NCBI RefSeq assembly: GCF_007827795.1
Contig: NZ_VITI01000003.1
Location: forward strand, 94,090-158,089
Direction of reading: 5' to 3'
DNA from: Azospirillum brasilense
Lineage (GTDB): Bacteria; Pseudomonadota; Alphaproteobacteria; Azospirillales; Azospirillaceae
Length of the DNA stretch: 64,000 nt
Positions 42,450 to 60,357 of this stretch are shown in pieces. A program made the translations under genes and the position numbers. The notes beneath the pieces are model-generated. The model worked only from the letters and a program-made list of their open reading frames with translations, ran no database searches and was not told the DNA's origin. Each line of letters begins with the position of its first letter. Within the stretch, counting starts at the first letter, position 1.

Positions 42450-42477
42450 TTGTCAAAATCTCTTTAAGTTGTATCAT
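42450..42477 (+). promoter_or_regulatory. Candidate sigma-70 promoter P1 of the NRPS cluster
   Basis: TTGTCA (42450-42455) and TATCAT (42472-42477) are separated by 16 bp, each one or two changes from consensus, in an AT-rich stretch about 140 bp upstream of the NRPS start. Confidence 0.6.
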
Positions 42478-42480
42478 TCG

Positions 42481-42508
42481 TTGACAATCCCTCCTTAAGA
42501 CGTATTTT
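42481..42508 (+). promoter_or_regulatory. Candidate sigma-70 promoter P2 of the NRPS cluster
   Basis: A consensus TTGACA (42481-42486) is followed after 16 bp by TATTTT (42503-42508). It lies immediately downstream of P1, so transcription may start from tandem sites. Confidence 0.55.
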
Positions 42509-42613: not shown

Positions 42614-45600
42614 ATGCCCGACACCACGCCGCACCTCCCCAACGTCGACCTTCCTCTGTCCAAAAGTTTCGGGCCGGTCAGACACTGGCCCGATCTTCGT
42701 CTGCACGAGGGGTTCGAACGGCTTGTGGAGCGGTATCCCAACGCCCCGGCGGTGGTGACGGAGGCCGTCATCCTCGACTACGCCGGGCTGGACGCAGCAG
42801 CCAACGCATTGGCCCATGCGCTGCTGGCCCTCGGGTTGGACAGGGAAGAGCCGGTCGGGGTGCTGGCGGAGCGGTCAGGCTATCTGCCGCAGGCGTTCCT
42901 CGGGATTCTCAAGGCGGGCGGCGTCTACGTGCCGATGGTCGCCGACCTGCCGCCGGAGCGGCTGGCGAACATGGCGCGGCAAGCGGGGATGCGGCTGCTG
43001 ATTGCTCTGGACGGTCTGATACCGCCGGACGCGCTGGCCGATGCCCTGTCCGCCAACGGCGGGGCGGAGCGGCCGCAAGCCGTCCTGCGCCCCGAATCCC
43101 TGGACGGGGACAGCCTCGCCAAGTCCATGGAACGCCCGAACCGTCCCGGCCCGGCGAACGGTCTGGCGAACGGGCTGGCGGTCATCCTCTTCACCTCCGG
43201 CTCGACCGGCCAGCCGAAAGGCGTGCTGATCCGGCACGACGCCTGCGTGAATCTGGCGCTCGGTCACACGGAGGCGCAGGGCGTCGGGCCGGGCGACCGG
43301 GTTCTGCTGTCCACCTCCCCCGGTTTCATCCTGGGCTTCCGCGAACTGTGCCTGCCGCTGCTCTCCGGTGCCGCCTATGTTCCGGCCTCGCGGGCGCTGA
43401 TCGACGATCCGGCGCGACTGCTCGAACACATGGCCCGGCTGAGGGTGACCATCGCCCTGTTCACGCCGTCCTACCTGCGGCTTCTGCGCGGGGCGGTGCC
43501 GGCGGGGCTGCGCATGATCCTGACCGCCGGGGAGCGGCCGAACCCCGACGACGCGCGGCATTACGCCCGCCACCTCGACTATTGGAACATGCATGGCGCC
43601 ACCGAGGTTTGCGGCACCATCTGCATGCACAAGGTGAGCCCCCATGGCGACGGCCCGCTGCCAAGCGGGCGCCCCTTCATCAACAACGCCGTCCATCTGC
43701 TCGACCGCCACGGCAACGAAGTCCCCGACGGCGCGGTCGGGGAGATCCACGTCGTCGGGCGGGGCGTCTCGCGCGGCTACCTGAACCAACCCGAGCTGTC
43801 GGCGGAGAATTTCGTGGAAACGCGCTTCGGGCGCGCCTACCGCACGCACGACCTGGGGCGCTGGAACGCGGACGGCGAGCTGGAGACGCTGGGCCGCGCC
43901 GACGACATGGTGAAGGTGTCCGGCCAGTCGGTGTCGCTGGGCGAAATCGAACGGACGCTGCTGCGCCACCCGCTGGTCAGCCGCGCCGCCGTCCTTCAGC
44001 ACCAGGGCCGCCTGACCGCCATCGTCGAGAGCGCCGATCCGGAGGCCGCGCAGGGGGAGGATTGGCGCGCGTTCCTCGGCCGCACCCTGCCCGCCTACAT
44101 GGTCCCGGCGCGGGTCCGCGCCGTGGCGCGGATGCCGATCAGCTCCGCCGGCAAGACCGACCGCCGCGCCCTGCTGGCGCTCGCCGAGGAGGCTTTGACC
44201 GCGCCACGCGCCACGGGTGGAACACCGCCGCAGGGCGACCTGGAACGGGCCATCGCCGCGGTGTGGGAAGAGGTTCTGGACACCCGCCCGGTGATGCGGG
44301 ACGACCCGTTCTTCGCCATCGGCGGCAGCAGCCTGCTCGCCATCGCGGTGGGCCAGCGCCTCCACGCGCTCGGCCATCCGGTGACGGTGCCGGTGATCCT
44401 GGCCTCTCAGACGGTGGAGGCGCTGGCCCGCCGCATCGCAGAACAGACAGACGAGGACACCGCCGCGCCGGACCTGACCAGTGGTCCCGCCACCGCCGGT
44501 CAGGAGGATTTCTGGGTCGCCGCCAAGCTCGGCCTCGCCGCCGTCGGGTCGCACGTCGTGCGCGTCCTGTCGGTGCGCGGCCCGGTTCCGGAGGTGGAGC
44601 GCTGGCGCGCCGCCTGGGCCGCGCTGCTGGAGCGCCACCCCGCCCTGCGCACCGCCTTCCACACCGATGCCGACGGGCGGGTGCGCTGGCGCACGGTTCC
44701 CGCCGCCGGTTTGCCGTCCTCCGTCGGCTTTTCCGTCGACCGCTGCCACGTCCCGGAGGAGGCGCGGGAGCTGATCGCCGGCTACGCCGGGACGCCGTTC
44801 GCACTGACCCAGGCGCCTCTGGCCCGCGCCGGCCTGATGTTCATCGAATCCGGCAATGAGACGCTGTTCTGGTTCGTGCTGCACCACGCGGTGGTGGACG
44901 GCCAGTCCGCCCGCACCGTGCAGGAGGATGTCCTTACCCTGCTGCTGGGCCGCCCCTTGCCCTCGGCGCCGCACGGCGTCGCGCAGGCCGCGCGGGACGA
45001 GGCGCATCACCACCGTTCCGGCCGGGCGGAGCAGGACCGCGCCTTCTGGCGGGCCAAGCTGGACGCCCTGCCGCCGGAGGCGTTCGAGGAGCTTCCGCTC
45101 GACCGCCCCCGCCCAGCCACACCCGGCGGGCGCTCCGCCCCACCCCTGGCGGAGCGGCTGGACGCCGCGACCACCGCGGCCCTCGCCGCCATCGCGAAGG
45201 CGCAGGGCGTCGGCCTGCACGGCCTGCTGCTGGCGATCCTGGCGGCGGAGACGCGGCGGCGCGGCGGACGGACCGACCTGATCCTGGGAACCGGCGTTTC
45301 GCTGCGCCCCGCAGGAGCCGAGGACGCCGTTGGGCATTTCGTCAATCTCGTGCCGGTCGTCCTGCCCGGCGTCACCGGAGCGTTGGCCGGACAGGTTCGC
45401 GCCGCCCAGGACGCGCTGACCGAGGCGGTCGGACACGCCGGCCTGCCCGCCAACCTGATCCAGCGTGAATTCCGCCAGCGCCGGCCCGACGCGCTGCCGC
45501 CCGCCCGCTCCAACCTCTTCGCGATGGCGCTGACCGCCAACCCGCCGCGAACCAGCATCGATCCGGCCAGCGCCCTGTCCCTCGCCCCGCGCCGCCTGCC

Positions 45601-48600
45601 TGGTGCGCTCGCCCACCCCGCCGCCGGCCTCGACCTCGCCTTCAGCCACGAGCCGGTGACGGCGGAGGACGGCGAAGGGCTGGAACTGGCGCTGTTGTGG
45701 AATCCGGACGTTTATACGGAGGACACCGCGCGCTCCTGGTTGGTCGGCTTCGCCGCCTGGGCGCGCTGGCTGGCCGCCGAACCGGCGCGGCTGGCGTCCC
45801 CGCTGCCCGCCCTGCTGCCGGAGGAGTCGGCCCTTCTGGAGCGCTGGGAGCATGGCGAGGAGCGGCCCCGTCCGGCCCACCGTGCCCATGAGCTGTTCGA
45901 AGAGATTGCCGCCCGCCTGCCGGACCGCCCCGCCGTGGTCACCCGCAGCGGCGTGCAGACCTATGGCGACCTGAACCGGGACGCCGACCGCATCGCCGCC
46001 GCCCTGCTCCGCTGCGGTGTGGCGCGGCAGGAGCCGGTGGCGGTCCTGACCGGCTGCTCACCGGACCTGCCCGCGGCGGTGATCGGAATCTGGAAGGCCG
46101 GGGCGGCCTATCTGCCGTTGGCCCAAGACCTGCCGCCGGAGCGCATGGCCTATATGGTCCGCGACGCGGGCGCCCGGCTGCTGATCGCGCTGGACGGCCA
46201 GCCCGTCCCGCCCGCCCTGGCAGATGCCATTCCCACGCTGATCCGTCCCGAATGGCTTGAGAGTTCCCCCGAACGGACCTCCGTGGCCGGGGCGCCGGAC
46301 GACCTCGCCTACATCATCTACACCTCCGGCACCACCGGGCATCCGAAGGGCGTGGCGGTCCGGCACGACGGCTTCGTCAACGCCGCGCTGGCGACCGGGG
46401 AGACGGTCGGCTTGCTGGCGGACGACCGTATGGCGCTGACGGCGACGCCGGGATTCGACGCCTCGCTGTGGGAACTCGGGCTGGCACTGCTGCACGGCAT
46501 GGCTCTGGTTCCCGTGCCGTCGGACCTGCGCGACGATCCCTGGGCGCTGAAGGACGCCTATGCGGAATTGGGCGTCACCGTGGCCTTCCATGCCCCCTCC
46601 TATCTGCGGGTCAGCAAGGAGAAGCCGTTCCGCGGCCTGCGCATCCTGCTGACCGGCGGAGAGGCGCCGAACGCCGACGATGCCCGTCACCACGCCGCCG
46701 GGCCGGCCTTCTGGAATGCCTACGGCCCCACCGAGGCGAGCATCCTCGCGACCATGGGCCGCATCCTGCCCGACAGCGGGCGCAGCGGCCCGGTGCCCGC
46801 CGGACGCCCGCTGCCCAATGTCCGTGTCACGCTGCGCCGCCCGGACGGGACGCCGGTCCCGCCCGGCCTGCCGGGGGAGGTGTGGCTGAGCGGAGTGGGT
46901 CTCGCCCGTGGCTATCTGAACAATCCGGAGCTGACCGCCCGTTCCTTCGTCGAGACGGCGGAGGGCCGCTTCTACCGCACCGGCGACTTGGGGCGCTGGA
47001 CGGTGGACGGCCAACTGATCCTGTGCGGCCGCATCGACCATCAGGTGAAGCTGCACGGCCAGCGCGTCGAGCTTGCCGAGATCGAGCAGGACCTGCTGGC
47101 CCACCCCGCCGCCGCACAGGCCGTCGTGCTGGTGGACGCCGCGGCCGAAGGCACCAAGGCCCTGCGCGCCTTCGTCCGCGCCAAGGACAGCGCCGCCCTT
47201 CCCGACGAGGAGGGGTGGCGCGCCTTCCTCGCCGACCGCCTGCCCGCCTTCATGGTGCCGGCCAGCGTGACGGCGGTGGACAGCCTCCCGCTGACGCCGG
47301 CGGGCAAGATCGACCGCGACGCCCTGCTCCGCCTCGCCCATTCCCATTCCGATGGCCACGCCGCCACGGCGGAGCGGGAGGCGCCACTGGACGGACTTGA
47401 AAGCCGCATCGCCGCCCTGTGGGGCGGTCTGCTGGGCGAGGAGGTCGCGCGTGCCGACAACTTCTTCGCGCTCGGCGGCAACAGCCTGCTGGCGGTGACC
47501 ATCGCGCACCGGCTGTCCCAGGAGCTGGGCGTGACCGTTCCGGCGCGCGCCCTGTTCGCCGCACCGACCCTGGCCGGCTTCACCCGCAAGGTGGCGGAGT
47601 TGCGCGATGCGGCAGCGCCCCAGGCCGACGCGGATGGCTCCGACCTCGCCACCGAAGGGGAACGGGAGTTCCGGGTGGCCGAAGCGGCGGGGCTGGACAC
47701 GCGCCCCTTCATCATCCCGGTGATCCGCACCGTGGAGGGGGAAGTCCCGGACCCGGCACGCTGGTCGGACGCCTGGACAGCGCTCGTGGAGCGGCATGAA
47801 GCGTTGCGCACGACCTTCGCGGAGGACGCGGAAGGGTGCCTGCACCGCCGCGTCGCCGCCACCGTCGATGGTGCGCTGGAGCTGTCCACCCAGACCGGCC
47901 GCACCGCGGCTCTCGCCCACATTCGCGCCCGCCAGGGGGAACCCTTCGCCATGGCGACCGCGCCGCTGTGGCGGGCCGGGCTGGTGAGGCTGGCGGACGG
48001 CGGTTCGCCGCTGTTCTGGATGGCAATGCATCATTCGATTGGCGACGGACGCTCGGTCGGCATCCTGCTGGAGGAGTTGACCGCCCTTCTGGCCGGCGAA
48101 CCCCTGCCACCCTTGTCTGCCCGCTACGCCGCCATAGCCGCCCGCGAGTTGCGCTATCTGGACGGCCCGGACCACGCGGCGGACGAGGCCCATTGGCGGG
48201 AACACCTGTCCGCCCTGCCCCCCGAGGCCTTCGAGGACTGGCCGCTCGACACGCCGCGCGCCGCCGGGGCCACACCGGGCAGCCACCGGTTCGAGCTGCG
48301 TCTGGACCCGGCCACCGCCGCCGGGTTGAAGGCGGTCGCCCGCCGGCACGAGGCCAGCCTGCACGCCATCCTCCTGACCCTGTTGGCGCGCGAGGTGCGG
48401 CGGCGCACCGGACGCGGCGCCTTCACCATCGGGACCACCGGCGACATACGGGAAACCGCCGAGGACATGCGCGTCGTCGGCTATGGCGTGAACATGCTGC
48501 CGCTGGCCTTTTATCCTGTTGCCGGCATCCCCTTCGGGGCGGAGTTGCGCGCCACCCAGGCGGCTCTGGCCGGGGCGCTTCAGCACGCCCGTATGCCCTT

Positions 48601-51600
48601 CGCACGGATCTGCCACGGCTTCTGGGAGGATCATCCGCAGCACCGCGACCCGGCGCGCTACCCGCTGTTCGACATCGCGGTGACGGAGAATCCGCAAGGT
48701 GCCCGCGCCGCCGGCCCGCTGTGCCTCGTCCGTCCCAATGGCGAAGGGCCGGCCTATGAACGCACCGGCCACTCGCCGGGCCAGGACATGGTGCTGATCC
48801 ATGAAGGGCTGGCCGACGGCGGGCTGCTGCTGCAATGGCACGTCAACGCCGCGCTCTACGCCCAGGACACGGCGGAGCGCTGGTTCGACGCGCTGACCGG
48901 CTGGGCGCGCTGGCTGGGGGACGACGACGCCCGCGCCGAGGCGACGCCGCCCGCCCTGCTGCCGGAGGAAGAAGCCACTCTCGCTTCGTGGGAGCATGGT
49001 CCGGCGGCGGAGCGCCCTACGCTGACCTTCCACGCGCTGTTCGAGCGGCTGATCGACCGTCCCGGCACCGGCCAGGGCGGACGCCCGGCGGTCATCGGTG
49101 CCGACCGCGTTTTGACCTACCGCGCGGTGGAGGCGGAGGCCAACGCCATCGCCCACGCTCTGCGTGAGCGCGGGGTGGAGCGGGGAACCGTGGTCGGCGT
49201 GCTGACCGGCCGCTCCCCCAACCTGCCCGCCGCCCTGCTGGGCGTGTGGAAGGCTGGAGCGGTCTATCTGCCGCTGGCCTCCGACCTGCCGGCCGAGCGG
49301 CTGGCCTTCATCGCCGGGGACGCCGGAGCGGCCCTGCTGCTGGCGCTGGACGGCGCGGCGGTTCCGGACGCGCTGTCCGCCCTGCCCGTTCTGCGCCCGG
49401 AAGACCTGTCCGCCGATTTCCGCACGGCGCACGCCCACCGTCCGCAAGCCGCGACCGGACCGGAGGACACCGCCTACATCCTCTACACCTCCGGCTCCAC
49501 CGGCCGCCCCAAGGGCACGCCGGTCAGCCACGGCGCCTACGTGAACATGGTCTTGGGCGCTGTCGAGACCTTTGGCCTGACCGCCGAGGACCGGTCGCTG
49601 ATGTTCGCCTCGCCCTCCTTCGACGTGTCGCTGTCGGACATCGGCGTGCCGCTGGCCGCCGGGGCGGCGCTCTGCGCCGTTCCCTACGAGGTGCTGAGCG
49701 CGCCGGCCCGCCTGATCGCTTTCCTGGCGGAGCAGCGGGTGACCGTCGCCGACCTCACCCCGACCTATCTGCGCCTGTTCGACGGGGCGGAATTGCCGTC
49801 GCTGCGTATCCTGGTGACCGGGGGCGAGGCGCCGCTGGCGGCGGACGTGCGGGCCTATGCCGGGCGGCTGCGCTATTACAACGCCTACGGCCCGACCGAG
49901 AACACGATCACCAGCGCCATGGGGCTGTTAAGCGCGGAGGACCGGGGCTTCCTGCCGGTCGGGCGTCCGCTGCCCAACACGTCGGTCCACATCCGCAACG
50001 CGGCGGGCCGGCCGGTGCCGCCGGGGGCGGTGGGGGAGATCTGGCTGGGCGGCGCCAACCTCGCCTGCGGCTATCGGAACCGTCCGGAGCAGGAGGCAGC
50101 GGCCTTCATCGGGACGGGAAGCGGACGGCTCTACCGCTCCGGCGACCTTGGGCGCTGGCGCGCCGACGGCGAGTTGGAGGTGCTGGGCCGCATCGACGAT
50201 CAGGTGAAGCTGAACGGCATCCGCATCGAACTCGGAGAGATCGAACAGGCGCTCAGCAGCCACCCCGATGTTGCGCAGGCGGTGGCCCTGGTGCAGGGCA
50301 AGGCCGGCGCGGCGCAGAGCCTGTGGGCCTTCGTCCGCCCCGTGCCGGGCAGGCCGGTTCCGGCCGAGGAGCCCTGGCGCGGCTGGCTGGCCGAGCGGTT
50401 GCCCGCGGTGATGATCCCGGCCGGGCTGATCGCGGTGGAGACGGTGCCGGTCACGGCGTCCGGCAAGGTGGACCGCGCGGCGCTGCAAGGGCTGATCGCC
50501 GGCCACGCCCCGCAGGGTGCGCAGATGGCGCCGCAGGGCCGGCTTGAGGAGACCGTCGCCCGCGTCTGGGCGGAGCGGCTGGGCCGCGGCCCGGTCTGGC
50601 GCGACGACAATTTCTTCGCGCTCGGCGGCCACAGCCTGCTCGCCATCGCCGTCGCCCATGCGCTGGAGACGGAACTGGGGCGCCCCGTCTCTGCCCGCGA
50701 CCTGTTCACCGAGCCGATGCTGCGCGGCTTCGCCGCCCGCCTCGCCGCCGCTCCTGCGGATTTCCCATCCGATGCCGAATCTGACCGCGCGACCGAAGGC
50801 CAGCGGGAGTTCTGGGTGGCCGAGCAGGCCGGGCTGGACGTCCGCGGCTTCAACATTCCCCTGACGCTGGCTGTTGAGGGCGATGTCCCTGCCAACGACC
50901 GCTGGCAGGACGCCTGGGCCGCCCTGACCGATCGGCACGAGGCGCTGCGCACCAGCTTCCGCGAGGACGAGGGCGGCACGCTCCGCCGTGTCGTCCTTCC
51001 CGTGACCGACGTTCTGGAGATGCGGACGGCCCCCGACCGCACTGCCGCGCTGGACCTCTTCCGGGAGCGTCAGACGGCGCCCTTCGCCATGGCCGCTCCG
51101 CCGCTGTGGCGGGCCGGGCTGGTGCGGGTGGCGGACGGCAGCGGCGCCCTGTTCTGGCTGGCCCTGCACCATTCCATCGGCGACGGCCTGTCCCTCGGCC
51201 TGCTGGCAGACGACTTGGCCGCATTGCTGCGCAGGGTGTCCCCACCCGGCCGTGCGCCCGGCTTCGGCCGATCCGCCGCGCGGGAGGAAAACCACCTCGC
51301 CAGCGAGGCCGCCAAGGCGGACGCGGAGCATTGGCAAAACCTGCTCGCCGGGATCGATCCCGCCGCCTTCGAGGAATGGCCGCTCGACAAGCCCCGTCCG
51401 CCGGTGCGCAACGCCGAAACGGCCAAGGGAAGCCATTGCCACCGCGTCCGCCTCGCCCCGGATGTGGCGGAGGCGTTGCGCGCCCTCGCCCGGCGCAACG
51501 GCGCCAGTCTGCACGCCCTGATGATGACCCTGATGGCATGGGAAGTGCGGCGCCGCACCGGCCGGGCGGCGTTCCTGATGGGCACAGCCGCCTCCACCCG

Positions 51601-54600
51601 CGAAACGGCGGAGGAGGCGGGCGTCGTCGGCTACTATGTCAACATGCTGCCGGTGCCTTTCCAGGTGGACCGGAGCGAGCCGCTGGAACAGGCCGTCAAG
51701 GCCACGCAAAGCCGTCTGGCGGAAGCCTTGCGTCATGGCCGCCAGCCCTTCGCCCGCATTCATCAGGAGTTCCGGCGCCACCAGCCGCAGGCGCATCACC
51801 CCGCCCGCTACCCGCTGTTCGATCTGGCGGTGACGGAAAATCCGGCGATGGCCGCCCCACGGGGTGACGGGCTTCGCTTCGCGGCCATCGATGCCCTCAC
51901 CAGCGGCGGCATCCAGTACGAGCTGCGCCACAGCGCCCCCGCCCAGGACCTCGTCCTGGTGCATGAGGGGCAGGCGGACGGTGGCTTGGTCCTCCAGCTC
52001 TACGCCAACGCCGCCCTCTACGAGCGGGAGACTGCCCAGGCCTGGACCGCGGCGCTGGCCGGCTGGGCGCGTCGGCTGGCCGATCCGCAGCGAGCGAGGG
52101 GCGAACCGCTGCCCGCCCTGCTGCCGGATGAGGAGACGCTGCTCGCGGCGTGGGAGCGCGGTCCGGCGATGCCGCACCCGGTTCCCTGCTTCCACCACCA
52201 GTTCGCCGCGCTGGCGCGCTCGCAGCCGGACCGACCCGCCCTCATCACCGATGACGGGGAAACCAGCTACGCCGCGATGGACGCCCGCGCCAACGCGCTG
52301 GCCCACGCGCTGCTGGCGCAGGGCGTGCGGACCGGCGAAGCGGTCGGCGTCCTGACGGAGCGCTCGCCCGCCCTGCCCGAAGCGGTGCTGGCGATCTGGA
52401 AGGCCGGGGCCGCCTATCTGCCGCTGACCCGCGACCTGCCGGCGGACCGGCTGGCCTTCATGGCCCGCGACGCCGCCATCCGCGTCGTCGTGGCGCTGGA
52501 CGGCCACCCCCTGCCCGACGCGCTGGCGCAGGCCGGTTACGCCGTTCTTCGCCCGGAAACCCTGACCGAGGACTTCCGCGCCGCCCATTCCCATGAACCG
52601 GAGGCCGGGCAACGCAGCGGTCCAGGCGATCCCGCCTACATCATCCACACCTCGGGGTCCACCGGGCTGCCGAAGGGCGTCGTGCTGCATCATGGCGGGT
52701 TGCTGAACCTCGGCCTGTCGATGGCGCGGATGATGGGCGTCCAGCCGGACGAACGGACGCTTCTCAGCTCCTCCCCCTCCTTCGACGCCTGGATCTCCGA
52801 TTCCGTGATGACCTGGGCGACCGGCGGCGCCCTCGTTCCCATCCGCCGCGCCGAGATGGACGACACCGCCGGGCTGCGCGCCAAGATGGAGCGGCTGGGC
52901 GTCACCTCCGCCACCCTGCCGCCCTCCTATCTGCGGCTGTTCGAGCAGGCGGACCTGCCGACCCTGCGCATCCTGATGACGGTGGGTGAGCCGCCAAACG
53001 CCGCAGACGCCCTGCACTACGCGGCGCGGCTGCGCTACATCAACGGCTACGGCCCGACCGAGAACACCGCCGCGGCCAGCATCGGCATCCTGCGCCCGGA
53101 CTCGCCCTGGATGAGCGCAGGGCGCCCGCTGCCCAACACCGCCATCCACATCCTGGACGAGGATGGGGAGCCGGTGCCCCCCGGCGCCATCGGCCATGTC
53201 TGGCTGAGCGGCATGGGGCTGGCCATCGGCTACCTGAACCGGCCCGACCTGACCGCCGCCGCCTTCGTCGAGACGGCGAAGGGCCGCCGCTACCGCACCG
53301 GCGACCTCGGCCGCTGGCTGCCGAATGGCGAGTTGCTGGTGCTCGGGCGGTCGGACGGCCAGGTGAAGCTGCGCGGCCAGCGCGTGGAGCTGGGCGAGAT
53401 CGAGCACCGGCTGGAATCCTACCCCGGCGTCCAGCAGGCGGTGGCCCTGGTGGACACGCCGCCGGGGGGCACCCAGACGCTGTGGGCCTTCGTCAGCCTC
53501 GCGCCCGACGCCGCGGAACCGACGCAGGCCGCCTGGGCCGCCCATGCGGCGGCGGCGCTGCCCACCTATATGGTGCCGGCGGCGGTGATCCGGGTGCCGG
53601 CGATCCCGGTGACGGTGGCCGGCAAGGTGGACCGCAAGGCCCTGCTGCTGGCGCTGGCCGACCACGCCCCATCCGAAGGCGCCGCCTCCGGCGCCTACAC
53701 CCCGCCGCGCAACGCGGTGGAGCAGCGGGTGGCGGAGTTGTGGGCCGAGCAGCTTCAAAGGCCCGTTCCGGGGCGCGAGGCCGGCTTCTTCGAACTGGGC
53801 GGCGACAGCCTGCGGGCGATCGCCGTGGTCAACCGCCTGCGCCGCGAATTCGCCTGCAAGATCAACGACCTCTACGAAGCCCCGGTGCTCGCCGACTTCG
53901 CGCTGCGGCTGCGGCCCCAGCCGGACCATCTTCACCGCGTCATCGCCGCCGTCCGATCCCATTGGCGGGACTATCAGGCGACCCTGCCCGCCTTCGACGC
54001 CGCCCGCGACCGGGCGCTGGCCGAGCAGCAGCGGGCCTACGAGGCGCGCAACGCGGCCTACGACGCCTTCGACGGAACGGAGCGGCGGGACTATGGCGAG
54101 GTGCTGCTGACCGGCGCCTCCGGCTATCTCGGCGCCTATCTGCTGCGGGAGCTTCTGTCCGACCCGACACGGCGGGTGACCGCTCTGGTCCGCGGGGGCG
54201 ACGACGGGGCCGCCCGCGCCCGGCTGGACCGCGTGCTGGCCGGCTATTTTGGGGCGGCGGGCGGGGCCGCGCTGATCGGCGATCCGCGCCTGACCGTGCG
54301 GGCCGGCGACCTGCGCCGCGACGGGCTGGGCCTCGCCCCAACGGCGCACGGCGCACTGGCGGAGGGGGTGCGGGCGGTCTTCCACTGCGCCGCCAACGTC
54401 AACCATTTCGGCCACTACGCGGAGTTCCACGCCGACAATGTGGAGGCGACGCGCCGGCTTCTCGACCTCGCCGCCGCGCGGCGCGGCGACCCGGCGGACT
54501 TCCACCTGATCTCCACCCTGTCGGTCACCGGCAAGGCGCCGGAGGACGGCTTCAAATTGGTCACCGAGTACGACGCGGTGCCGGAGACGCTCGACGACAA

Positions 54601-55216
54601 CTACTATGTCCGCAGCAAGCAGGAGGCGGAACGGCTGGTCACGGCGGCGCGCAGCGACCTGCGCAACGCCAGCATCCACCGCGTCGGCAACGTCGTCTTC
54701 GCGGCGGAGGGCGGACCGCTGCAGTTGAACCTGCGGGACAACGCCTTTTTCCGGCAGCTGGCCGCCTTCGTGCGGCTGGGGGTGGTGCCCGACGATTCGC
54801 ACGTCTGGCTGTGCCACGTTGACCGCGTCGCCCGCGCGGTGGCTTTGCTGGCCGGCGCCGCCGGCCTCGCCAACGAGACGCACCATGTGGAGAACCACCG
54901 CCGCGACACGCTGGCCGATTTCGTCACCTCGGCGGCGGGCATGGCGGGCGCGGTGCGGGCGGTCGGCTTCGACACCCTGCTCGACCGGCTGGAACGCGCC
55001 ATCGGCGAACCCGACATGGACGGCGCGCTGGCTCAGACGCTGGAGGGCTTCGGCCTCTACAGCGGGCGCTCCCCCCAGATGCGCGGCAGGCGGCAGGAGC
55101 TGACCTCCGAACGCACGCAAGGTCTGCTCGGCCGCATGGGCTTCGGCTGGCCGCCGGTCCCCCGCGCCGGGCAGGCCGACATGCTGCGCGCCGCCGCAGA
55201 CCTTTTCTCCCAATGA
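42614..55216 (+). CDS. Four-module nonribosomal peptide synthetase with terminal reductase
   Basis: 4,200 residues; ATG 42614 has GGGG upstream, GTG 42602 is an alternative. Domain order: A1 (about 20-525), T1 (Ser573 in GGSSL), C1 (HHAVVDG 757-763), A2 (1090-1575), T2 (Ser1624), C2 (HHSIGDG 1806-1812), A3 (2138-2625), T3 (Ser2674), C3 (HHSIGDG 2852-2858), A4 (3191-3680), T4 (Ser3732) and a thioester reductase (3825-4195; TGASGYLG at 3833, Tyr3998/Lys4002). Specificity positions (235, 236, 239, 278, 299, 301, 322, 330, 331, Lys517) read by eye: A1 I-L-R-L-L-A-M-G-T, A2 D-A-W-F-L-G-A-I-L (leucine-like), A3 D-V-S-D-V-G-A-I-T (basic, arginine-like), A4 D-A-S-T-M-V-G-A-A (unassigned). A1 lacks the amine-binding Asp. 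No epimerase, methylase or TE domain; the chain should leave as an aldehyde or alcohol. Confidence 0.95.
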   Translation: MPDTTPHLPNVDLPLSKSFGPVRHWPDLRLHEGFERLVERYPNAPAVVTEAVILDYAGLDAAANALAHALLALGLDREEPVGVLAERSGYLPQAFLGILKAGGVYVPMVADLPPERLANMARQAGMRLLIALDGLIPPDALADALSANGGAERPQAVLRPESLDGDSLAKSMERPNRPGPANGLANGLAVILFTSGSTGQPKGVLIRHDACVNLALGHTEAQGVGPGDRVLLSTSPGFILGFRELCLPLLSGAAYVPASRALIDDPARLLEHMARLRVTIALFTPSYLRLLRGAVPAGLRMILTAGERPNPDDARHYARHLDYWNMHGATEVCGTICMHKVSPHGDGPLPSGRPFINNAVHLLDRHGNEVPDGAVGEIHVVGRGVSRGYLNQPELSAENFVETRFGRAYRTHDLGRWNADGELETLGRADDMVKVSGQSVSLGEIERTLLRHPLVSRAAVLQHQGRLTAIVESADPEAAQGEDWRAFLGRTLPAYMVPARVRAVARMPISSAGKTDRRALLALAEEALTAPRATGGTPPQGDLERAIAAVWEEVLDTRPVMRDDPFFAIGGSSLLAIAVGQRLHALGHPVTVPVILASQTVEALARRIAEQTDEDTAAPDLTSGPATAGQEDFWVAAKLGLAAVGSHVVRVLSVRGPVPEVERWRAAWAALLERHPALRTAFHTDADGRVRWRTVPAAGLPSSVGFSVDRCHVPEEARELIAGYAGTPFALTQAPLARAGLMFIESGNETLFWFVLHHAVVDGQSARTVQEDVLTLLLGRPLPSAPHGVAQAARDEAHHHRSGRAEQDRAFWRAKLDALPPEAFEELPLDRPRPATPGGRSAPPLAERLDAATTAALAAIAKAQGVGLHGLLLAILAAETRRRGGRTDLILGTGVSLRPAGAEDAVGHFVNLVPVVLPGVTGALAGQVRAAQDALTEAVGHAGLPANLIQREFRQRRPDALPPARSNLFAMALTANPPRTSIDPASALSLAPRRLPGALAHPAAGLDLAFSHEPVTAEDGEGLELALLWNPDVYTEDTARSWLVGFAAWARWLAAEPARLASPLPALLPEESALLERWEHGEERPRPAHRAHELFEEIAARLPDRPAVVTRSGVQTYGDLNRDADRIAAALLRCGVARQEPVAVLTGCSPDLPAAVIGIWKAGAAYLPLAQDLPPERMAYMVRDAGARLLIALDGQPVPPALADAIPTLIRPEWLESSPERTSVAGAPDDLAYIIYTSGTTGHPKGVAVRHDGFVNAALATGETVGLLADDRMALTATPGFDASLWELGLALLHGMALVPVPSDLRDDPWALKDAYAELGVTVAFHAPSYLRVSKEKPFRGLRILLTGGEAPNADDARHHAAGPAFWNAYGPTEASILATMGRILPDSGRSGPVPAGRPLPNVRVTLRRPDGTPVPPGLPGEVWLSGVGLARGYLNNPELTARSFVETAEGRFYRTGDLGRWTVDGQLILCGRIDHQVKLHGQRVELAEIEQDLLAHPAAAQAVVLVDAAAEGTKALRAFVRAKDSAALPDEEGWRAFLADRLPAFMVPASVTAVDSLPLTPAGKIDRDALLRLAHSHSDGHAATAEREAPLDGLESRIAALWGGLLGEEVARADNFFALGGNSLLAVTIAHRLSQELGVTVPARALFAAPTLAGFTRKVAELRDAAAPQADADGSDLATEGEREFRVAEAAGLDTRPFIIPVIRTVEGEVPDPARWSDAWTALVERHEALRTTFAEDAEGCLHRRVAATVDGALELSTQTGRTAALAHIRARQGEPFAMATAPLWRAGLVRLADGGSPLFWMAMHHSIGDGRSVGILLEELTALLAGEPLPPLSARYAAIAARELRYLDGPDHAADEAHWREHLSALPPEAFEDWPLDTPRAAGATPGSHRFELRLDPATAAGLKAVARRHEASLHAILLTLLAREVRRRTGRGAFTIGTTGDIRETAEDMRVVGYGVNMLPLAFYPVAGIPFGAELRATQAALAGALQHARMPFARICHGFWEDHPQHRDPARYPLFDIAVTENPQGARAAGPLCLVRPNGEGPAYERTGHSPGQDMVLIHEGLADGGLLLQWHVNAALYAQDTAERWFDALTGWARWLGDDDARAEATPPALLPEEEATLASWEHGPAAERPTLTFHALFERLIDRPGTGQGGRPAVIGADRVLTYRAVEAEANAIAHALRERGVERGTVVGVLTGRSPNLPAALLGVWKAGAVYLPLASDLPAERLAFIAGDAGAALLLALDGAAVPDALSALPVLRPEDLSADFRTAHAHRPQAATGPEDTAYILYTSGSTGRPKGTPVSHGAYVNMVLGAVETFGLTAEDRSLMFASPSFDVSLSDIGVPLAAGAALCAVPYEVLSAPARLIAFLAEQRVTVADLTPTYLRLFDGAELPSLRILVTGGEAPLAADVRAYAGRLRYYNAYGPTENTITSAMGLLSAEDRGFLPVGRPLPNTSVHIRNAAGRPVPPGAVGEIWLGGANLACGYRNRPEQEAAAFIGTGSGRLYRSGDLGRWRADGELEVLGRIDDQVKLNGIRIELGEIEQALSSHPDVAQAVALVQGKAGAAQSLWAFVRPVPGRPVPAEEPWRGWLAERLPAVMIPAGLIAVETVPVTASGKVDRAALQGLIAGHAPQGAQMAPQGRLEETVARVWAERLGRGPVWRDDNFFALGGHSLLAIAVAHALETELGRPVSARDLFTEPMLRGFAARLAAAPADFPSDAESDRATEGQREFWVAEQAGLDVRGFNIPLTLAVEGDVPANDRWQDAWAALTDRHEALRTSFREDEGGTLRRVVLPVTDVLEMRTAPDRTAALDLFRERQTAPFAMAAPPLWRAGLVRVADGSGALFWLALHHSIGDGLSLGLLADDLAALLRRVSPPGRAPGFGRSAAREENHLASEAAKADAEHWQNLLAGIDPAAFEEWPLDKPRPPVRNAETAKGSHCHRVRLAPDVAEALRALARRNGASLHALMMTLMAWEVRRRTGRAAFLMGTAASTRETAEEAGVVGYYVNMLPVPFQVDRSEPLEQAVKATQSRLAEALRHGRQPFARIHQEFRRHQPQAHHPARYPLFDLAVTENPAMAAPRGDGLRFAAIDALTSGGIQYELRHSAPAQDLVLVHEGQADGGLVLQLYANAALYERETAQAWTAALAGWARRLADPQRARGEPLPALLPDEETLLAAWERGPAMPHPVPCFHHQFAALARSQPDRPALITDDGETSYAAMDARANALAHALLAQGVRTGEAVGVLTERSPALPEAVLAIWKAGAAYLPLTRDLPADRLAFMARDAAIRVVVALDGHPLPDALAQAGYAVLRPETLTEDFRAAHSHEPEAGQRSGPGDPAYIIHTSGSTGLPKGVVLHHGGLLNLGLSMARMMGVQPDERTLLSSSPSFDAWISDSVMTWATGGALVPIRRAEMDDTAGLRAKMERLGVTSATLPPSYLRLFEQADLPTLRILMTVGEPPNAADALHYAARLRYINGYGPTENTAAASIGILRPDSPWMSAGRPLPNTAIHILDEDGEPVPPGAIGHVWLSGMGLAIGYLNRPDLTAAAFVETAKGRRYRTGDLGRWLPNGELLVLGRSDGQVKLRGQRVELGEIEHRLESYPGVQQAVALVDTPPGGTQTLWAFVSLAPDAAEPTQAAWAAHAAAALPTYMVPAAVIRVPAIPVTVAGKVDRKALLLALADHAPSEGAASGAYTPPRNAVEQRVAELWAEQLQRPVPGREAGFFELGGDSLRAIAVVNRLRREFACKINDLYEAPVLADFALRLRPQPDHLHRVIAAVRSHWRDYQATLPAFDAARDRALAEQQRAYEARNAAYDAFDGTERRDYGEVLLTGASGYLGAYLLRELLSDPTRRVTALVRGGDDGAARARLDRVLAGYFGAAGGAALIGDPRLTVRAGDLRRDGLGLAPTAHGALAEGVRAVFHCAANVNHFGHYAEFHADNVEATRRLLDLAAARRGDPADFHLISTLSVTGKAPEDGFKLVTEYDAVPETLDDNYYVRSKQEAERLVTAARSDLRNASIHRVGNVVFAAEGGPLQLNLRDNAFFRQLAAFVRLGVVPDDSHVWLCHVDRVARAVALLAGAAGLANETHHVENHRRDTLADFVTSAAGMAGAVRAVGFDTLLDRLERAIGEPDMDGALAQTLEGFGLYSGRSPQMRGRRQELTSERTQGLLGRMGFGWPPVPRAGQADMLRAAADLFSQ

Positions 55217-56214
55217 ACGCCTGGGGACCTTTCATGCTGAACCACCTCCAAGACCTGGGCTTCCGCTGCGGAGAATTCACCGTCGAGCCGCTGCCCGACG
55301 CGGAAACCGGGCGGGTCCTCGCCGTCCTGGCCGCCCGCCACGGGACGGAGACCGACGCCGCCGCCCTCGTCCCGGACGGGCGGGAAACCGAGCTGCGCGG
55401 CGAACTGGCGGAGGCCGCCCCCGGCCTGTCCGCCCTGGCCACGGCGATCCGCGACCGGCTGGAGACCAGCCACAGCGGCGTGCTGATCCGCCACGCCCAT
55501 CTCGGCCGCCATGACCTCGACACCCGCCGCCGCCTGCTCTACGCGCTGGCGGTCGGCATCGGCGCGCCGACCGCGACCGACCGGATCGACCGCAAGGTGG
55601 TGTGGGACATCAAGGTCCGGCCCGAACTGGTCCGCGCGGGTGGTGCCTCCACCTTCTCCGAGCACGCCGACGAGGCGGACTTCCACACCGACACCCAGTA
55701 TTTCCCGACCCCCGAACGCTACATGCTGCTCTATTTCGCCCGGGCGGCGGCCTGCGGCGGCGGGCGGTCCAGCCTGCGCGACGCGCGCTGTGTCCGCGCG
55801 GCTCTGGCCGGCAGCAACGAAGGGCTCTGGGCGCTCGACCTGCTGTCGCGGACGGCGCTGCCCTTCCGCATCCCCGCCACCTTCACCCGCACTGGGTCGC
55901 ACGACGCGGTGGAGGTGACCTTCGCCACCGTCTTCGGCGACCGTCCGCTCATCCGCTTCCGCACCGACACGCTGCGCCGCGGGCTGGCCGCCTGCCCGGA
56001 GCACGACACGCCGGAGGTCCGCCGCGCGCTCGCCATCCTCCAGGCGGAGTTGGACAACCCGGCGCGGCGGCTGGAGACCTTCATGGAGTCCGACAGCCTG
56101 CTGGCGATGAACAACCACGAGGCGCTCCACGGGCGCGGCGCCTTCGCCGACCCGGATCGTCACGCATTGCGCATCCGCATCGACGATGGCGCTCCGCAGG
56201 ATCAGGCGCGATGA
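55213..56214 (+). CDS. TauD-like Fe(II)/2-oxoglutarate-dependent oxygenase
   Basis: 333 residues. The iron triad is H158 and D160 (ADFHTDTQYF) and His306 in NNHEALHGRGAF, with Arg320 (HALRIRI) a good 2-oxoglutarate ligand. The fold and motifs resemble NRPS-associated amino-acid hydroxylases of the clavaminate/AsnO group. ATG 55213 overlaps the NRPS stop by 4 nt; ATG 55234 with GGGGAC upstream is an alternative. It probably hydroxylates a free or carrier-bound amino acid of the peptide. Which residue is modified is not known. Confidence 0.9.
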   Translation: MNAWGPFMLNHLQDLGFRCGEFTVEPLPDAETGRVLAVLAARHGTETDAAALVPDGRETELRGELAEAAPGLSALATAIRDRLETSHSGVLIRHAHLGRHDLDTRRRLLYALAVGIGAPTATDRIDRKVVWDIKVRPELVRAGGASTFSEHADEADFHTDTQYFPTPERYMLLYFARAAACGGGRSSLRDARCVRAALAGSNEGLWALDLLSRTALPFRIPATFTRTGSHDAVEVTFATVFGDRPLIRFRTDTLRRGLAACPEHDTPEVRRALAILQAELDNPARRLETFMESDSLLAMNNHEALHGRGAFADPDRHALRIRIDDGAPQDQAR

Positions 56215-57860
56215 ACCTCCTCCGCTTGCTGGGACGGCTCGGACCGGCGCCGCTGCGCCGGCTGGTTCTCTACGCGTTGGGGTCGGCCCTCTTCTCCACG
56301 CTGGTGCTCGCCCTGGTCAACCGCGGGGCGGAGGAGATCGCCGCGGAGAAGGCCGACGTCGTCAACGTGCCCCTGGCCGCCGCCTTCGTCGTCAGCGTCC
56401 TCCTCTACATGCTCCTGGAAGGCCGCATGGTCGCCCATTTATCGGCGGATGCGGAGGAGGTGGTGGACAGCCTGCGCATGCGGCTGCTCGACCAGATCCG
56501 CCGCGCCGACCTGTGGAAGCTGGAACGCTTCGGCCAGACCCCGCTGTTCGAGAGCGTGACGCAGAGCAGCCAGCTCATCTCGCAGAACTCGCAGTTCCTG
56601 GCGCTGACGGTGCGTTCGGTCCTGCTGACCGGAACGATCCTGCTCTACATCGCCACCATCTCGCCGGTCGCCTTCCTGCTGATCGGCGGGCTGCTGGGCG
56701 CCGGGACGTGGTTCTACGTCCGGCTGGGCCGCGCGCTGGAGGAACGGCAGCGCGCCATGATGGCCGAGGAGGCCGCCCTGTTCGAAGGCGTGTCGGACCT
56801 GTTCGACGGCTTCAAGGAGCAGCGTCTGAACAGCGCCCGCAGCCGCGACCTGAACGCCGCCTTCGGCACCGTGTCCGGCCGCACCACCACGGCCCGCGGC
56901 GCGGTTCATCTGCACACCTGGCAGCAGTTCGTGTTCGGCGAATGCGCCTTCAACCTGATGCTGGGCGTGGTTGTCTTCGTCGTGCCTACCTACTCCAGCG
57001 CCATCTCGGCGGAGCTGGTGAAGATCACCGCCGCCATCTTCTTCATGTCGGCCCCGGTCTTCGGGCTGATGCAATCACTGGCGGTGATGAGCGCCGCGGA
57101 GGCCGCCGCCGGACGCATGATGGCTCTGGAGGGCCAGCTTTCGGAACTGGCGGAGGCCGGAAGCGACGGCCCCACCCTGCCGGTGCCGGTCAACTTTGCC
57201 GAAGTGCGGATGGAGGGGGTGGAGTTCGCCTTCCCCGCCCCGCCGGGCGAGCCACCCTTCGCGGTCGGTCCCTTCGACCTGACCATCCGGCGCGGCGAGG
57301 TGATCTTCATCACCGGCGGCAACGGGTCGGGCAAATCGACCTTCATCAAGCTGCTGACCGGCCTTTACCACCCTCTGCGCGGGCGGATCACGGTGGACGG
57401 GGTGCCGGTCGGGCCGCAGCGCATCGCCGCCTACCGCGAGCTGATGGCGACCGTCTTCGCCGACTTCCACCTGTTCGCCCGCCTCTACGGCCAGGACGCC
57501 ATCAACCCTCTGGAGGCCACCGACCTGATGCGCTGGCTGGAGATGGAGCGGGTCACCGCTCTGGAGGGCGACCGCTTCGGGCGGCGCGACCTGTCCGCCG
57601 GGCAGCGCAAGCGGCTGGGTCTCGTCGCCGCGATCCTGGAGAAGGCGCCGATCCTGATCCTCGACGAATGGGCCGCCGACCAGGACCCGCATTTCCGCTT
57701 CAAGTTCTACCGGGAGGTCGTGCCGGAGTTGAAGCGGCGCGGCCTGACCATCGTGGCGGTGACCCATGACGACCATTATTTCGACGTCGCCGATCGCCGC
57801 CTGCACATGGAGGAAGGCCACCTGATCGAACTGACCCTCGCGGCGGAGGGCGTGGCATGA
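56211..57860 (+). CDS. ABC exporter half-transporter 1 of the NRPS cluster (cyclic-peptide export type)
   Basis: 549 residues: an N-terminal six-helix membrane domain (first helix LVLYALGSALFSTLVLALVN) and a C-terminal ATPase with Walker A GGNGSGKST, signature LSAGQRKR and Walker B ILILDEWAADQDP. The EWAADQDP wording is characteristic of SyrD/PvdE-type peptide exporters. Start ATG 56211 overlaps the oxygenase stop by 4 nt. It likely exports the NRPS product across the inner membrane. Confidence 0.93.
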   Translation: MNLLRLLGRLGPAPLRRLVLYALGSALFSTLVLALVNRGAEEIAAEKADVVNVPLAAAFVVSVLLYMLLEGRMVAHLSADAEEVVDSLRMRLLDQIRRADLWKLERFGQTPLFESVTQSSQLISQNSQFLALTVRSVLLTGTILLYIATISPVAFLLIGGLLGAGTWFYVRLGRALEERQRAMMAEEAALFEGVSDLFDGFKEQRLNSARSRDLNAAFGTVSGRTTTARGAVHLHTWQQFVFGECAFNLMLGVVVFVVPTYSSAISAELVKITAAIFFMSAPVFGLMQSLAVMSAAEAAAGRMMALEGQLSELAEAGSDGPTLPVPVNFAEVRMEGVEFAFPAPPGEPPFAVGPFDLTIRRGEVIFITGGNGSGKSTFIKLLTGLYHPLRGRITVDGVPVGPQRIAAYRELMATVFADFHLFARLYGQDAINPLEATDLMRWLEMERVTALEGDRFGRRDLSAGQRKRLGLVAAILEKAPILILDEWAADQDPHFRFKFYREVVPELKRRGLTIVAVTHDDHYFDVADRRLHMEEGHLIELTLAAEGVA

Positions 57861-59509
57861 GGCTGGCCGCCATCGTCCTGCGCGAGCTTCCGGAGAATCT
57901 GCGCACGCTCGCCCTGATGAACGTCCTGTCGGCGATCGCGACCGCGGCGCTGCTGTGGCTGGTCGACGCCGCCGCCAAGGATGCCGCCAAGGGCATCGTC
58001 AGCCCACGGCTTCTGGTGATGTACGCGGTCACGGTGACGCTGTTCGGGGTGACCCACAATTACGCGCTGATCACCGCGTCCCAGGACGCCGAACGGCTGA
58101 TCCACAAGATCCGGCTGCGCCTGTTCGACCTGGTGCGCCGCGCCGACCTCGTGACCGTGGACCGCATCGGGCGGGCGTCGCTGCACGGCGTGCTGACCCA
58201 GGACACCCAGACGCTGGCCCAGACCCTGCCGCTTCTGGCGATCGGTGGGCAGCAGGCGGTGATGCTGGTCTTCCTGGCGGTCTATCTGGCTTGGCTGTCG
58301 CCGCTGGCCTGCGTGATGGCCTTCGCCTTCGCCGGGATCGCCGTGGCGGTGAAGGTCGCGCGGGTGCAGCGCCTGCGCCGCAGCATGATGGAGGCCGCGG
58401 CGGCGGAGTCGCGTGTCTTCGACGGGCTGACCGACCTGTTGCGCGGCTTCAAGGAGGTGCGGATGAACCGCCGCCGCGGCGACGGGCTGATCCGCGACCT
58501 CGCCGACGCCTCGTCCCGGGCGCGCGCGGTGAACGTGGACATGAAGGAACGGTGGGGCCGCAACTTCGCGCTGGTCGAGGCGATGTTCTACACGCTGATC
58601 GGCATGATGGTCTTCGTCGTGCCGCTGTTCACCACCGGCTATCACGCGGTGGTGGTGGCGGCGACCACGGCGGCCCTGTTCATCGTCGGGCCGGTCAGCA
58701 CCGTCTCCTTCGTCACCCCGCTGGTCGCCCAGACCGAGATGGCCCTGTCCAACATCGAGGCGATGGAGGAGCGGCTGCGCGCCGCCGCCGGCAGTGCCCC
58801 GGACGAAGGGGCGGAGCGGCTGCCCGGCCCGCCCGCCGGCATCGCGCTTAAGGACGCCAGCTTCGCCTATCACGACGGCGAGGGCACGCCGGTCTTCGCG
58901 GTCGGGCCGCTGTCGGCGGAATTCCGGGCGGGGGAAATCACCTTCGTCACCGGCGGCAACGGCTCCGGCAAATCCACCATGCTGCGCCTGCTGACCGGGT
59001 TGATGCCGTTGAGCGGCGGCGAGCTCCTCGCCGACGGGGAGCCGGTGGCGGCGGAGCGGATGCAGAGCTACCGCGACATGATCTCCGCCATCTTCTCCGA
59101 CTATCACCTGTCGCGCCGCCTCTACGGCGTCGCCGATACCGACCCGGCGCGCGTCAGCGCCCTGCTGGAGCGGCTGGAGATGCAGGACAAGGTGACGGTC
59201 GCGGACGGCGGCTTCAGCACCGTCGCCCTGTCCACCGGCCAGCGCAAGCGCCTCGCCCTCGTGGTCGCGCAGCTGGAGGACAAGCCGGTCATCGTGCTGG
59301 ACGAATGGGCCGCCGACCAGGACCCGCATTTCCGCCGCGTCTTCTACGAGGAACTGCTGCCGGAGCTGAAGGCGTTGGGGAAGATCGTCATCTGCGTAAC
59401 CCACGACGAGCGCTGGTTCGGCCTCGCCGACCGCGTTTATCACATGAACGAGGGCCGCATCGAGGAAAGCCACGCCCACCATCACCTGTTCGCGCTGGAA
59501 CCGGCGTGA
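57857..59509 (+). CDS. ABC exporter half-transporter 2 of the NRPS cluster
   Basis: 550 residues with the same layout as its neighbour: a membrane domain (NVLSAIATAALLWLVDAAAK, then LVMYAVTVTLFGVTHNY) followed by an ATPase with GGNGSGKST, LSTGQRKR (Thr in place of the usual Ser/Ala) and VIVLDEWAADQDP. ATG 57857 overlaps the previous stop by 4 nt. Adjacent paralogues imply a heterodimeric exporter of the SyrD/PvdE type, though two homodimers are possible. Confidence 0.93.
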   Translation: MRLAAIVLRELPENLRTLALMNVLSAIATAALLWLVDAAAKDAAKGIVSPRLLVMYAVTVTLFGVTHNYALITASQDAERLIHKIRLRLFDLVRRADLVTVDRIGRASLHGVLTQDTQTLAQTLPLLAIGGQQAVMLVFLAVYLAWLSPLACVMAFAFAGIAVAVKVARVQRLRRSMMEAAAAESRVFDGLTDLLRGFKEVRMNRRRGDGLIRDLADASSRARAVNVDMKERWGRNFALVEAMFYTLIGMMVFVVPLFTTGYHAVVVAATTAALFIVGPVSTVSFVTPLVAQTEMALSNIEAMEERLRAAAGSAPDEGAERLPGPPAGIALKDASFAYHDGEGTPVFAVGPLSAEFRAGEITFVTGGNGSGKSTMLRLLTGLMPLSGGELLADGEPVAAERMQSYRDMISAIFSDYHLSRRLYGVADTDPARVSALLERLEMQDKVTVADGGFSTVALSTGQRKRLALVVAQLEDKPVIVLDEWAADQDPHFRRVFYEELLPELKALGKIVICVTHDERWFGLADRVYHMNEGRIEESHAHHHLFALEPA

Positions 59510-60270
59510 TGGCCCCCACCCCATCCCCCTGGCTGCAAGGCTTCCGGCCGGTTTCGGCGCCGCGCCGCACCCTGGTCTGCTTTCCCTATGCCGGGGCCGG
59601 CGCCGCAGTCTTCCGGGACTGGGCGTCGGACGTCAGACCGGACACGGAACTGCTGGCCGTGCGCCTGCCGGGCCGGGAGAACCGCATCGGCGAGCCGCCA
59701 CTGAACCGGGTCGAGGACGCCGTGCCCGCCCTCCTGGGCGCGCTGGACCCGCTGGAGGACCGCCCGCTGATCCTGTTCGGCCATTCGCTGGGCGCAGCGC
59801 TGGCCTACGCCACCGCCCGCGCCTTGGTGGAGCGGGGGCGTCCGCCCGCCCTGCTGGCCGTGTCGGGGCGTCGGGCGCCGCACCGGACGTCGCGGCGGCC
59901 ACCCGTCGACGGGCTGGACGATGCGACCTTCCGCGCCCGTCTCGCCGCGCTGGGCGGCACTCCGCCAGAGGTGCTGGCTTGCGACGACCTGATGGAGCTG
60001 ATGCTTCCCATGCTGCGGGCCGACTTCGCCATGTCCGACGCCTTCCTCGAACCTGATCCGCCGCCGCTTCCGGTGCCGGCCCTGGCCTTCGCCGGGGCGG
60101 AGGACACCGAAGTGATGGTGGAGGAGGTCGCCGGGTGGGAACGGCTCGCCGGCGCGGGTTTCACGCTGCGCACGCTTCCCGGCGGCCATTTTTTCCTGCA
60201 CGAGCAGCGCGCCTCGATTGTCTCATGCCTGACGGAGGTGGCGTTCCGGGATGAACGAAAAGCGCAATAA
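59509..60270 (+). CDS. Type II thioesterase of the NRPS cluster
   Basis: 253 residues. It has the alpha/beta-hydrolase nucleophile GHSLG (Ser93) within LILFGHSLGAALAYATARAL, plus FPYAGAGAAVFRDWA and LPGRENRIGEPP, signatures of stand-alone editing thioesterases, and a GGHFFL histidine. Its role is to remove misprimed or stalled acyl groups from NRPS carrier domains, not to release the product. ATG 59509 shares one base with the exporter stop (TGATG). It is the last gene of the cluster, followed by a strong terminator. Confidence 0.93.
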   Translation: MAPTPSPWLQGFRPVSAPRRTLVCFPYAGAGAAVFRDWASDVRPDTELLAVRLPGRENRIGEPPLNRVEDAVPALLGALDPLEDRPLILFGHSLGAALAYATARALVERGRPPALLAVSGRRAPHRTSRRPPVDGLDDATFRARLAALGGTPPEVLACDDLMELMLPMLRADFAMSDAFLEPDPPPLPVPALAFAGAEDTEVMVEEVAGWERLAGAGFTLRTLPGGHFFLHEQRASIVSCLTEVAFRDERKAQ

Positions 60271-60330
60271 TTCTCTTTAATGGCAAATCCTTTGACGAAA
60301 ACAACCGTATTCGTTAGCCCATATGACGGT

Positions 60331-60357
60331 GCCGCCGGCAACCACCGGCGGCGTTTT
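60331..60357 (+). terminator. Rho-independent terminator of the NRPS cluster
   Basis: GCCGCCGG (60331-60338) and CCGGCGGC (60345-60352) form an 8-bp GC stem with a 6-nt loop, followed at once by GTTTT. It lies 60 nt after the type II thioesterase stop and ends the five-gene NRPS transcript. Confidence 0.85.

Follow-up and report, generated by a model that had tools for sequence, protein, structure and literature searches.

Orphan nonribosomal peptide synthetase (NRPS) clusters are common, and the one considered here raises two questions: what does its assembly line make, and how does the product leave the cell? The window, a 64,000-nucleotide stretch of Azospirillum brasilense (assembly GCF_007827795.1, contig NZ_VITI01000003.1, positions 94,090 to 158,089), carries genes for a reductase-terminated NRPS, an Fe(II)/2-oxoglutarate (2OG) oxygenase, two ATP-binding cassette (ABC) exporter halves (ABC1 and ABC2), a type II thioesterase (TEII), a DUF697 protein, a 65-residue protein and an SPFH protein (Table 1). 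From these genes we favor, with a probability of roughly 0.6, a biosynthesis-and-export locus in which the NRPS would make a capped peptide aldehyde or alcohol and an SPFH-associated export block would release it. The predicted product is an aldehyde or alcohol of a capped peptide that contains Arg. Its host, A. brasilense, is sold as an inoculant of grass roots, according to the accessible part of one paper (PMC10383956).

An earlier note on this DNA had described a 4,200-residue enzyme ordered A-T-C-A-T-C-A-T-C-A-T-R (adenylation, A; carrier, T; condensation, C; reductase, R), and the open frame and the Pfam matches confirm it: four AMP-binding, four PP-binding, three Condensation and one NAD_binding_4 domain, every match above its cut-off. 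The A3, A8 and A10 motifs are kept, the A10 Lys is present in four of four A domains, all four T domains have their Ser, and HHxxxDG stands in the three C domains. The terminal reductase is intact, with TGASGYLG at residue 3833 (TGxxGxxG), STLSV at 3967 and YYVRSK at 3997 (S/T-Y-K), the motifs of an NAD(P)H-dependent reductase, and reductive chain release would be the natural reading of such a domain. The three C domains are the only condensation domains found in the 6.24-Mb, 56-contig assembly, which also has two PF01648 matches. From their translations, we take one to be an Sfp-type transferase-like open reading frame and the other, which adjoins a PdxJ-like frame, to be AcpS-like. Compared with four relatives, all five genes from the NRPS to TEII are under purifying selection (dN/dS 0.09–0.35).

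To read the likely product, A-domain codes were extracted by alignment in 14 NRPSs, with the split NRPS of one genome (G010) excluded and the tenth letter assumed to be Lys517, which was checked in the window only. The window codes are ILRLLAMGT (A1), DAWFLGAIL (A2), DVSDVGAIT (A3) and DASTMVGAA (A4). The earlier note had matched none of them to a described metabolite and had missed that A1 lacks Asp235. A2 reads as Leu-like and A3 as probably Arg; A4 stays unmatched. Ile, Leu and Arg occupy positions 235, 236 and 239 in 13/13 A1 domains read by alignment, and the FILGFRE motif is found in A1 of 15/15 NRPSs, and Asp235 is missing in all 15; the A1 of Methylobacter, overlooked by the pattern, carries the same FILGFRE and NMHGATE motifs. 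We associate Arg239 with A domains that hold a second carboxylate and treat it as a lead only. The Leu-like code DAWF[L/I/N]G... is found in 13 of the 14 NRPSs read, DVSDVGA[I/V]T at A3 in 14/14, and D[A/L][S/A]TMVGAA as the last code in 13/14, which we presume to hint at a bulky or aromatic residue. In a code look-up in the literature, only the Leu code was matched.

According to the accessible part of a published survey, no A domain for an alpha-amino acid lacks Asp235 or Lys517 (PMC12283262). A1 of the window keeps Lys517 and lacks Asp235, so its starter is probably something other than an alpha-amino acid. A3 of the window fits the Arg consensus of the same survey, as far as accessible, at 9/10 positions (PMC12283262). 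A DNA-pattern search for the A1 motif in 398 genomes of the phylum gave six with a match (our own and five others), and among the others FILGFRE is spelled out only at L076, in an open frame of 1,242 codons where the searched NRPS motifs are all missing, so no described starter of the A1 kind was found. A tblastn search of A1 on plasmids gave seven Azospirillum records at 91–94% and 2,905 records all below 60%. The likely product is acyl-(Leu-like)-Arg-(bulky)-al or -ol, which may also carry a hydroxyl group; most likely the NRPS makes a tripeptide with a cap at one end and an aldehyde or alcohol at the other, and the ABC pair exports it.

The operon partners can be placed around this product. 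Pfam, NCBIfam and motif matches agree with the earlier note on the oxygenase, the two exporters and TEII, and also on the tight junctions: the overlaps across 42614-60270 are three of 4 nt (ATGA in each case) and one of 1 nt with the thioesterase ATG at 59509, or 4 nt if the thioesterase starts at GTG 59506 instead. The iron ligands of the oxygenase, H158-x-D160 and the distal H306, are invariant in 17 sequences. A structure model built from 17 sequences (pLDDT 85.5) has the fold of the VioC/clavaminate-synthase-like subgroup; a model from 12 close relatives reached a pLDDT of 56 and was discarded. Against the 286.2-bit cut-off of TIGR01194, the cyclic peptide export family, ABC2 scores 317.9 (over) and ABC1 278.3 (just under).

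In the mechanism we propose, A1 would load a carboxylic acid without an alpha-amino group, and Arg239 might hold a second acid or a hydroxyl. C1 to C3 would add a Leu-like residue, Arg, and then a bulky, perhaps aromatic, residue, after which the R domain would use NAD(P)H to free the chain, leaving an aldehyde or alcohol at its end. One residue, at a first guess Arg, would be hydroxylated by the oxygenase; TEII would clear misloaded carriers; and the twin ABC pair would export the peptide. The SPFH protein, together with DUF697 and the small protein, would organize the exporter, and perhaps the synthetase too, in a membrane patch. A macrocyclic imine would be unlikely because there would be no N-terminal amine, so our first guess for the product is a linear capped peptide aldehyde, protease-inhibitor-like. 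It is possible, though we lean against it, that the peptide aldehyde is an intermediate, which either cyclizes (to an imine, a pyrazinone or a hemiaminal that involves the side chain of Arg) or goes on to the alcohol by reduction. An NCBIfam match to the AusA (aureusimine) model was obtained, under its cut-off, and Arg is the predicted third residue; however, an A1 without Asp235 makes a free N-terminal amine unlikely, which disfavors the imine and the pyrazinone but not the hemiaminal or the alcohol.

The cluster is not private to this strain but spans the A. brasilense group and beyond. Relatives of the oxygenase occur in 23 of 82 family genomes, 21 of them at ≥52% identity. Flanking regions were examined in 17 of the 22 other genomes with an oxygenase relative, and in 15 of the 17 the same kind of NRPS domains accompanies the oxygenase and the two ABC genes, with some of these regions clipped by contig ends. 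Named carriers are A. brasilense, A. argentinense, A. tabaci, A. rugosum, A. canadense, Nitrospirillum and Niveispirillum, with Methylobacter tundripaludum and metagenome-assembled genomes (MAGs) labelled Magnetospirillum, Rhodospirillales and Sphingomonadales as further carriers. The two other oxygenase relatives, at 40–41% (G016 and G044), do not lie beside this type of NRPS, and at L045 there is one A-like match, at 31%. In a MAG labelled Deltaproteobacteria (L063), an oxygenase relative at 50% is accompanied by divergent matches to A and C domains, which lie on the opposite strand. Outside this bacterial family, the cluster looks rare in the genomes sampled. In a class sample of 385 genomes, with at most five first-look candidates scored per genome, the only oxygenase matches were our own and one in G154, whose 6.4-kb contig has no NRPS motif; in the class sample around Methylobacter, 1 of 369 genomes had the oxygenase, Methylobacter itself. 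Among the matches listed, no paper describing the cluster was found in the open-licence PMC literature.

The domain order differs between relatives in the number and make-up of modules: 11 of the 15 NRPSs read are A-T-C-A-T-C-A-T-C-A-T-R (G010 among them, in two frames). Those of Niveispirillum, RU38E and the Sphingomonadales MAG (L040, L042 and L070) have an additional C-T without an A domain, which implies loading by a neighboring or separate A domain. Pfam on 4,033 residues of the Sphingomonadales frame gave four A, four C and five T domains. The Nitrospirillum NRPS has five modules, and the final code is present twice.

How the product would leave the cell brings in the three genes downstream. 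The earlier note's "complete five-gene cluster" proved too short: the conserved gene set reaches 62711, beyond the five NRPS-operon genes, and DUF697, the 65-residue protein and SPFH recur with the cluster. A public A. brasilense record annotates them in the same order. Of the family genomes, 21 have the oxygenase at ≥52% identity, and 21/21 of these have orthologues of SPFH and DUF697. At ≥58% identity, relatives of SPFH occur in 24 of 82 family genomes, namely those 21 and G011, G016 and G042; DUF697 at ≥46% is found in the same 24, and also at 46% in G014 and G059. To relate SPFH to the exporter, the 150 exporter matches listed were merged into 106 loci and scored for a relative of the window SPFH (E ≤ 1e-15, so that other SPFH genes would go unseen) within 6 kb. 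Among the matches listed, such a relative is near 64 of 88 loci at ≤500 bits versus 0 of 18 above 500 bits, and near 40 of 44 loci with at least two exporter matches versus 24 of 62 with one. In Methylobacter and Magnetospirillum, SPFH adjoins a single ABC gene, with a periplasmic binding protein, and at the Sphingomonadales locus it lies beside a single ABC gene but on the opposite strand; these three SPFH proteins are only 32–38% identical to that of the window. Because SPFH tracks the exporter and not any one synthetase, the SPFH set is best explained, on this gene context, as part of the export apparatus.

Several observations weigh against the locus as we read it. On the product side, the A7 motif of A1 is YRTHD, the sole motif departure, where A2 to A4 have YRTGD or YRSGD, and A1 may be weak or dead given this change. 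Lys and Arg codes overlap in the survey as far as it is accessible (PMC12283262), so that Arg versus another basic residue is unsettled, and the A4 code matched nothing in that part of the survey. The R domain may yield either aldehyde or alcohol. Among the relatives, the NRPS frame is split in G010 and C1 is split in G005, and TEII was not found, within the flanks and score limits used, at the Niveispirillum, RU38E, Rhodospirillales MAG, Methylobacter, Magnetospirillum or Sphingomonadales loci. On the export side, 24 of the 88 exporter loci at ≤500 bits, among the matches listed, lack a nearby SPFH relative, and many of the loci counted are orthologues within one genus and thus not independent events. 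The SPFH gene of G005 is on a separate contig, and its adjacency is unseen there. SPFH is also not specific to this peptide, as three Azospirillum genomes (G011, G016 and G042; L083, L084 and L085) keep ABC1-ABC2-DUF697-SPFH beside a different hybrid of NRPS and polyketide synthase (NRPS-PKS). Lastly, DUF697, the small-protein gene and SPFH may be transcribed separately, given the terminator-like hairpin that precedes them downstream of TEII.

This hairpin is among the points for a further alternative, that the products of these three genes protect the cell itself or maintain its membranes in general and have no part in exporting this product. The SPFH-DUF697 pair is also found elsewhere in the same genome (C11:33000-45000, L086), at a locus where no NRPS was seen. 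That locus has an IcmF-like protein of 1,125 residues, DUF697, a SBP_bac_3 periplasmic binding protein, then SPFH between two ABC genes, and a thioester reductase that stands on its own; similar ABC-SPFH pairs are present in many Azospirillum. However, the C11 pair too sits with two ABC genes related to ABC1 and ABC2 and with a thioester reductase, and SPFH adjoins an ABC exporter at the Methylobacter, Magnetospirillum and Sphingomonadales loci; we rate the alternative as less likely than not. That the locus makes a siderophore, with PvdE-like exporters and an oxygenase forming beta-hydroxy acid ligands, perhaps related to spirilobactin, is very unlikely: siderophore exporters presumably belong to the same exporter family and spirilobactin is cited for A. 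brasilense in a reference-list entry, but no TonB receptor or ligand-forming gene is among the 19 features listed for the 33 kb that surround a single A. brasilense copy (in an incomplete gene table), the codes are unlike what we take to be the Asp and N-hydroxyornithine codes, and A1 is without the Asn235 that we assume for aryl acid domains.

With export of a reductively released peptide as the preferred function, the different synthetases allow a broader and more tentative idea. SPFH, DUF697, the small protein with its hydrophobic stretch and the two divergent ABC halves of PvdE/YojI type might form a portable synthase-exporter platform, a membrane microdomain that would hold the assembly line at the exporter and into which different factories could be plugged (reductase-ended NRPS, NRPS-PKS hybrids, or the non-NRPS thioester-reductase/IcmF-like locus). 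By Pfam, the G011 NRPS-PKS has a ketoreductase, a methyltransferase, C, A and T domains and a terminal thioesterase, and TEII is also present at the locus. For G016 and G042 the terminal thioesterase was seen by motif, with Pfam run on G011 only, and during gene picking an opposite-strand frame occupied the site where TEII could lie. In G059 (Nitrospirillum), another NRPS-PKS adjoins the ABC pair and two DUF697 genes, and a 36% SPFH relative lies about 5 kb away on the opposite strand.

Known systems resemble the locus in part. Like AusA (aureusimine) and MxcG (myxochelin), the window NRPS ends in T-R, and both models match it below their equivalog cut-offs; its R domain is related to the AusA and MxaA structures. 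Peptide aldehydes of the leupeptin and tyropeptin type are, we believe, also products of reductase-terminated NRPSs. Unlike those systems, the window NRPS has four modules in one chain with a starter A domain that lacks D235, and its locus adds a 2OG oxygenase encoded in the operon, a pair of ABC halves and the SPFH and DUF697 genes. The oxygenase is 16–26% identical to VioC/AsnO/clavaminate synthase and TtnM, and its substrate is perhaps carrier- or peptide-bound. The exporters are membrane-ATPase half transporters like the TIGR01194 exporters, which we take to include PvdE, SyrD and YojI; unlike the members above 500 bits, the window pair is lower-scoring and SPFH-linked. For the balhimycin exporter Tba, a proximity experiment found a paraslipin (SPFH) as neighbor protein, and the authors propose a microdomain anchor, according to the accessible part of that paper (PMC11960670). 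The likeness is an SPFH protein near an NRP exporter; the difference is that the link to Tba came from a proximity experiment, whereas in the window the gene for the SPFH protein itself adjoins the NRPS cluster. That NRPS enzymes and exporters are organized in microdomains is no more than suggested in that paper, the one related study found, as far as it is accessible (PMC11960670), and the SPFH and DUF697 genes give a genetic handle on the question. If the idea is true, a shared export platform would serve different peptide factories.

Table 1. Features of the NRPS and export locus, in window coordinates
Feature	Position	Strand	Basis
Two adjoining sigma-70-like promoters; AGTTGTATCATTCGTTGACA block at 42467-42486	42450..42508	+	Promoter scan, alignment
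Untranslated block TCCCTTTTTGGGA-N-GCATATGACGTTT-N-TGTAAAA	42520..42554	+	Near-invariant in 9/9
NRPS, 4,200 aa, A-T-C-A-T-C-A-T-C-A-T-R	42614..55216 (ATG to stop)	+	Pfam, alignment, motif reading
Fe(II)/2OG oxygenase, TauD PF02668; clavaminate synthase/VioC/TtnM-like fold	55213..56214	+	Pfam, motifs, predicted structure
ABC1, first exporter half (membrane + ATPase) with Walker A/B, signature and H-loop	56211..57860	+	NCBIfam, motifs
ABC2, second exporter half, of the TIGR01194 family (cyclic peptide export); ABC motifs present	57857..59509	+	Pfam, NCBIfam, motifs
Type II thioesterase PF00975, GHSLG + His	59509..60270	+	Pfam, motifs
Terminator-like hairpin, 8-bp GC stem (60331-60352), then only TTTT	60331..60357	+	Folding
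DUF697 protein, 231 aa from TTG 60596	60596..61291	+	PF05128, E 1e-10
65-aa protein, long hydrophobic stretch (by eye)	61411..61608	+	Annotated relative, translation
SPFH/Band 7 (prohibitin-family) protein	61605..62711	+	PF01145, E 9e-18

The true start of DUF697 may be further in, as the annotated A. brasilense copy has 213 codons. The 65-residue protein matched no Pfam family, and its stop overlaps the SPFH start by 4 nt. Among side observations on the oxygenase, DfmD is termed an Fe/2OG desaturase in passing in the accessible part of one paper, and plasmids of unrelated bacteria carry oxygenase relatives at 39% (H8, Streptantibioticus) and 34% (H10, Piscinibacter).

The tandem promoters of the earlier note held up: there are two sigma-70-like sites, one at 42450-42477 and one at 42481-42508, where shuffled sequences gave 0.2 on average. 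The second -35 element, TTGACA, is identical in 9/9 aligned Azospirillum upstream regions, and AGTTGTATC...TTGACA and TCCCTTTTTGGGA...CATATGACGTTT...TGTAAAA are nearly unchanged across these nine; the untranslated block is a possible operator. A terminator after the thioesterase, also proposed earlier, is plausible and fared less evenly: the 106-nt stretch with the hairpin folds at a z of -2.5, with 2 of 200 shuffles equally good, but the stem is followed by just a TTTT run, and a consensus terminator scanner did not report the hairpin at 60331, giving one weak site at 60587 instead. Perhaps by chance, CATATGACG occurs both in the conserved upstream block (42535-42543) and just before the hairpin (60320-60328).

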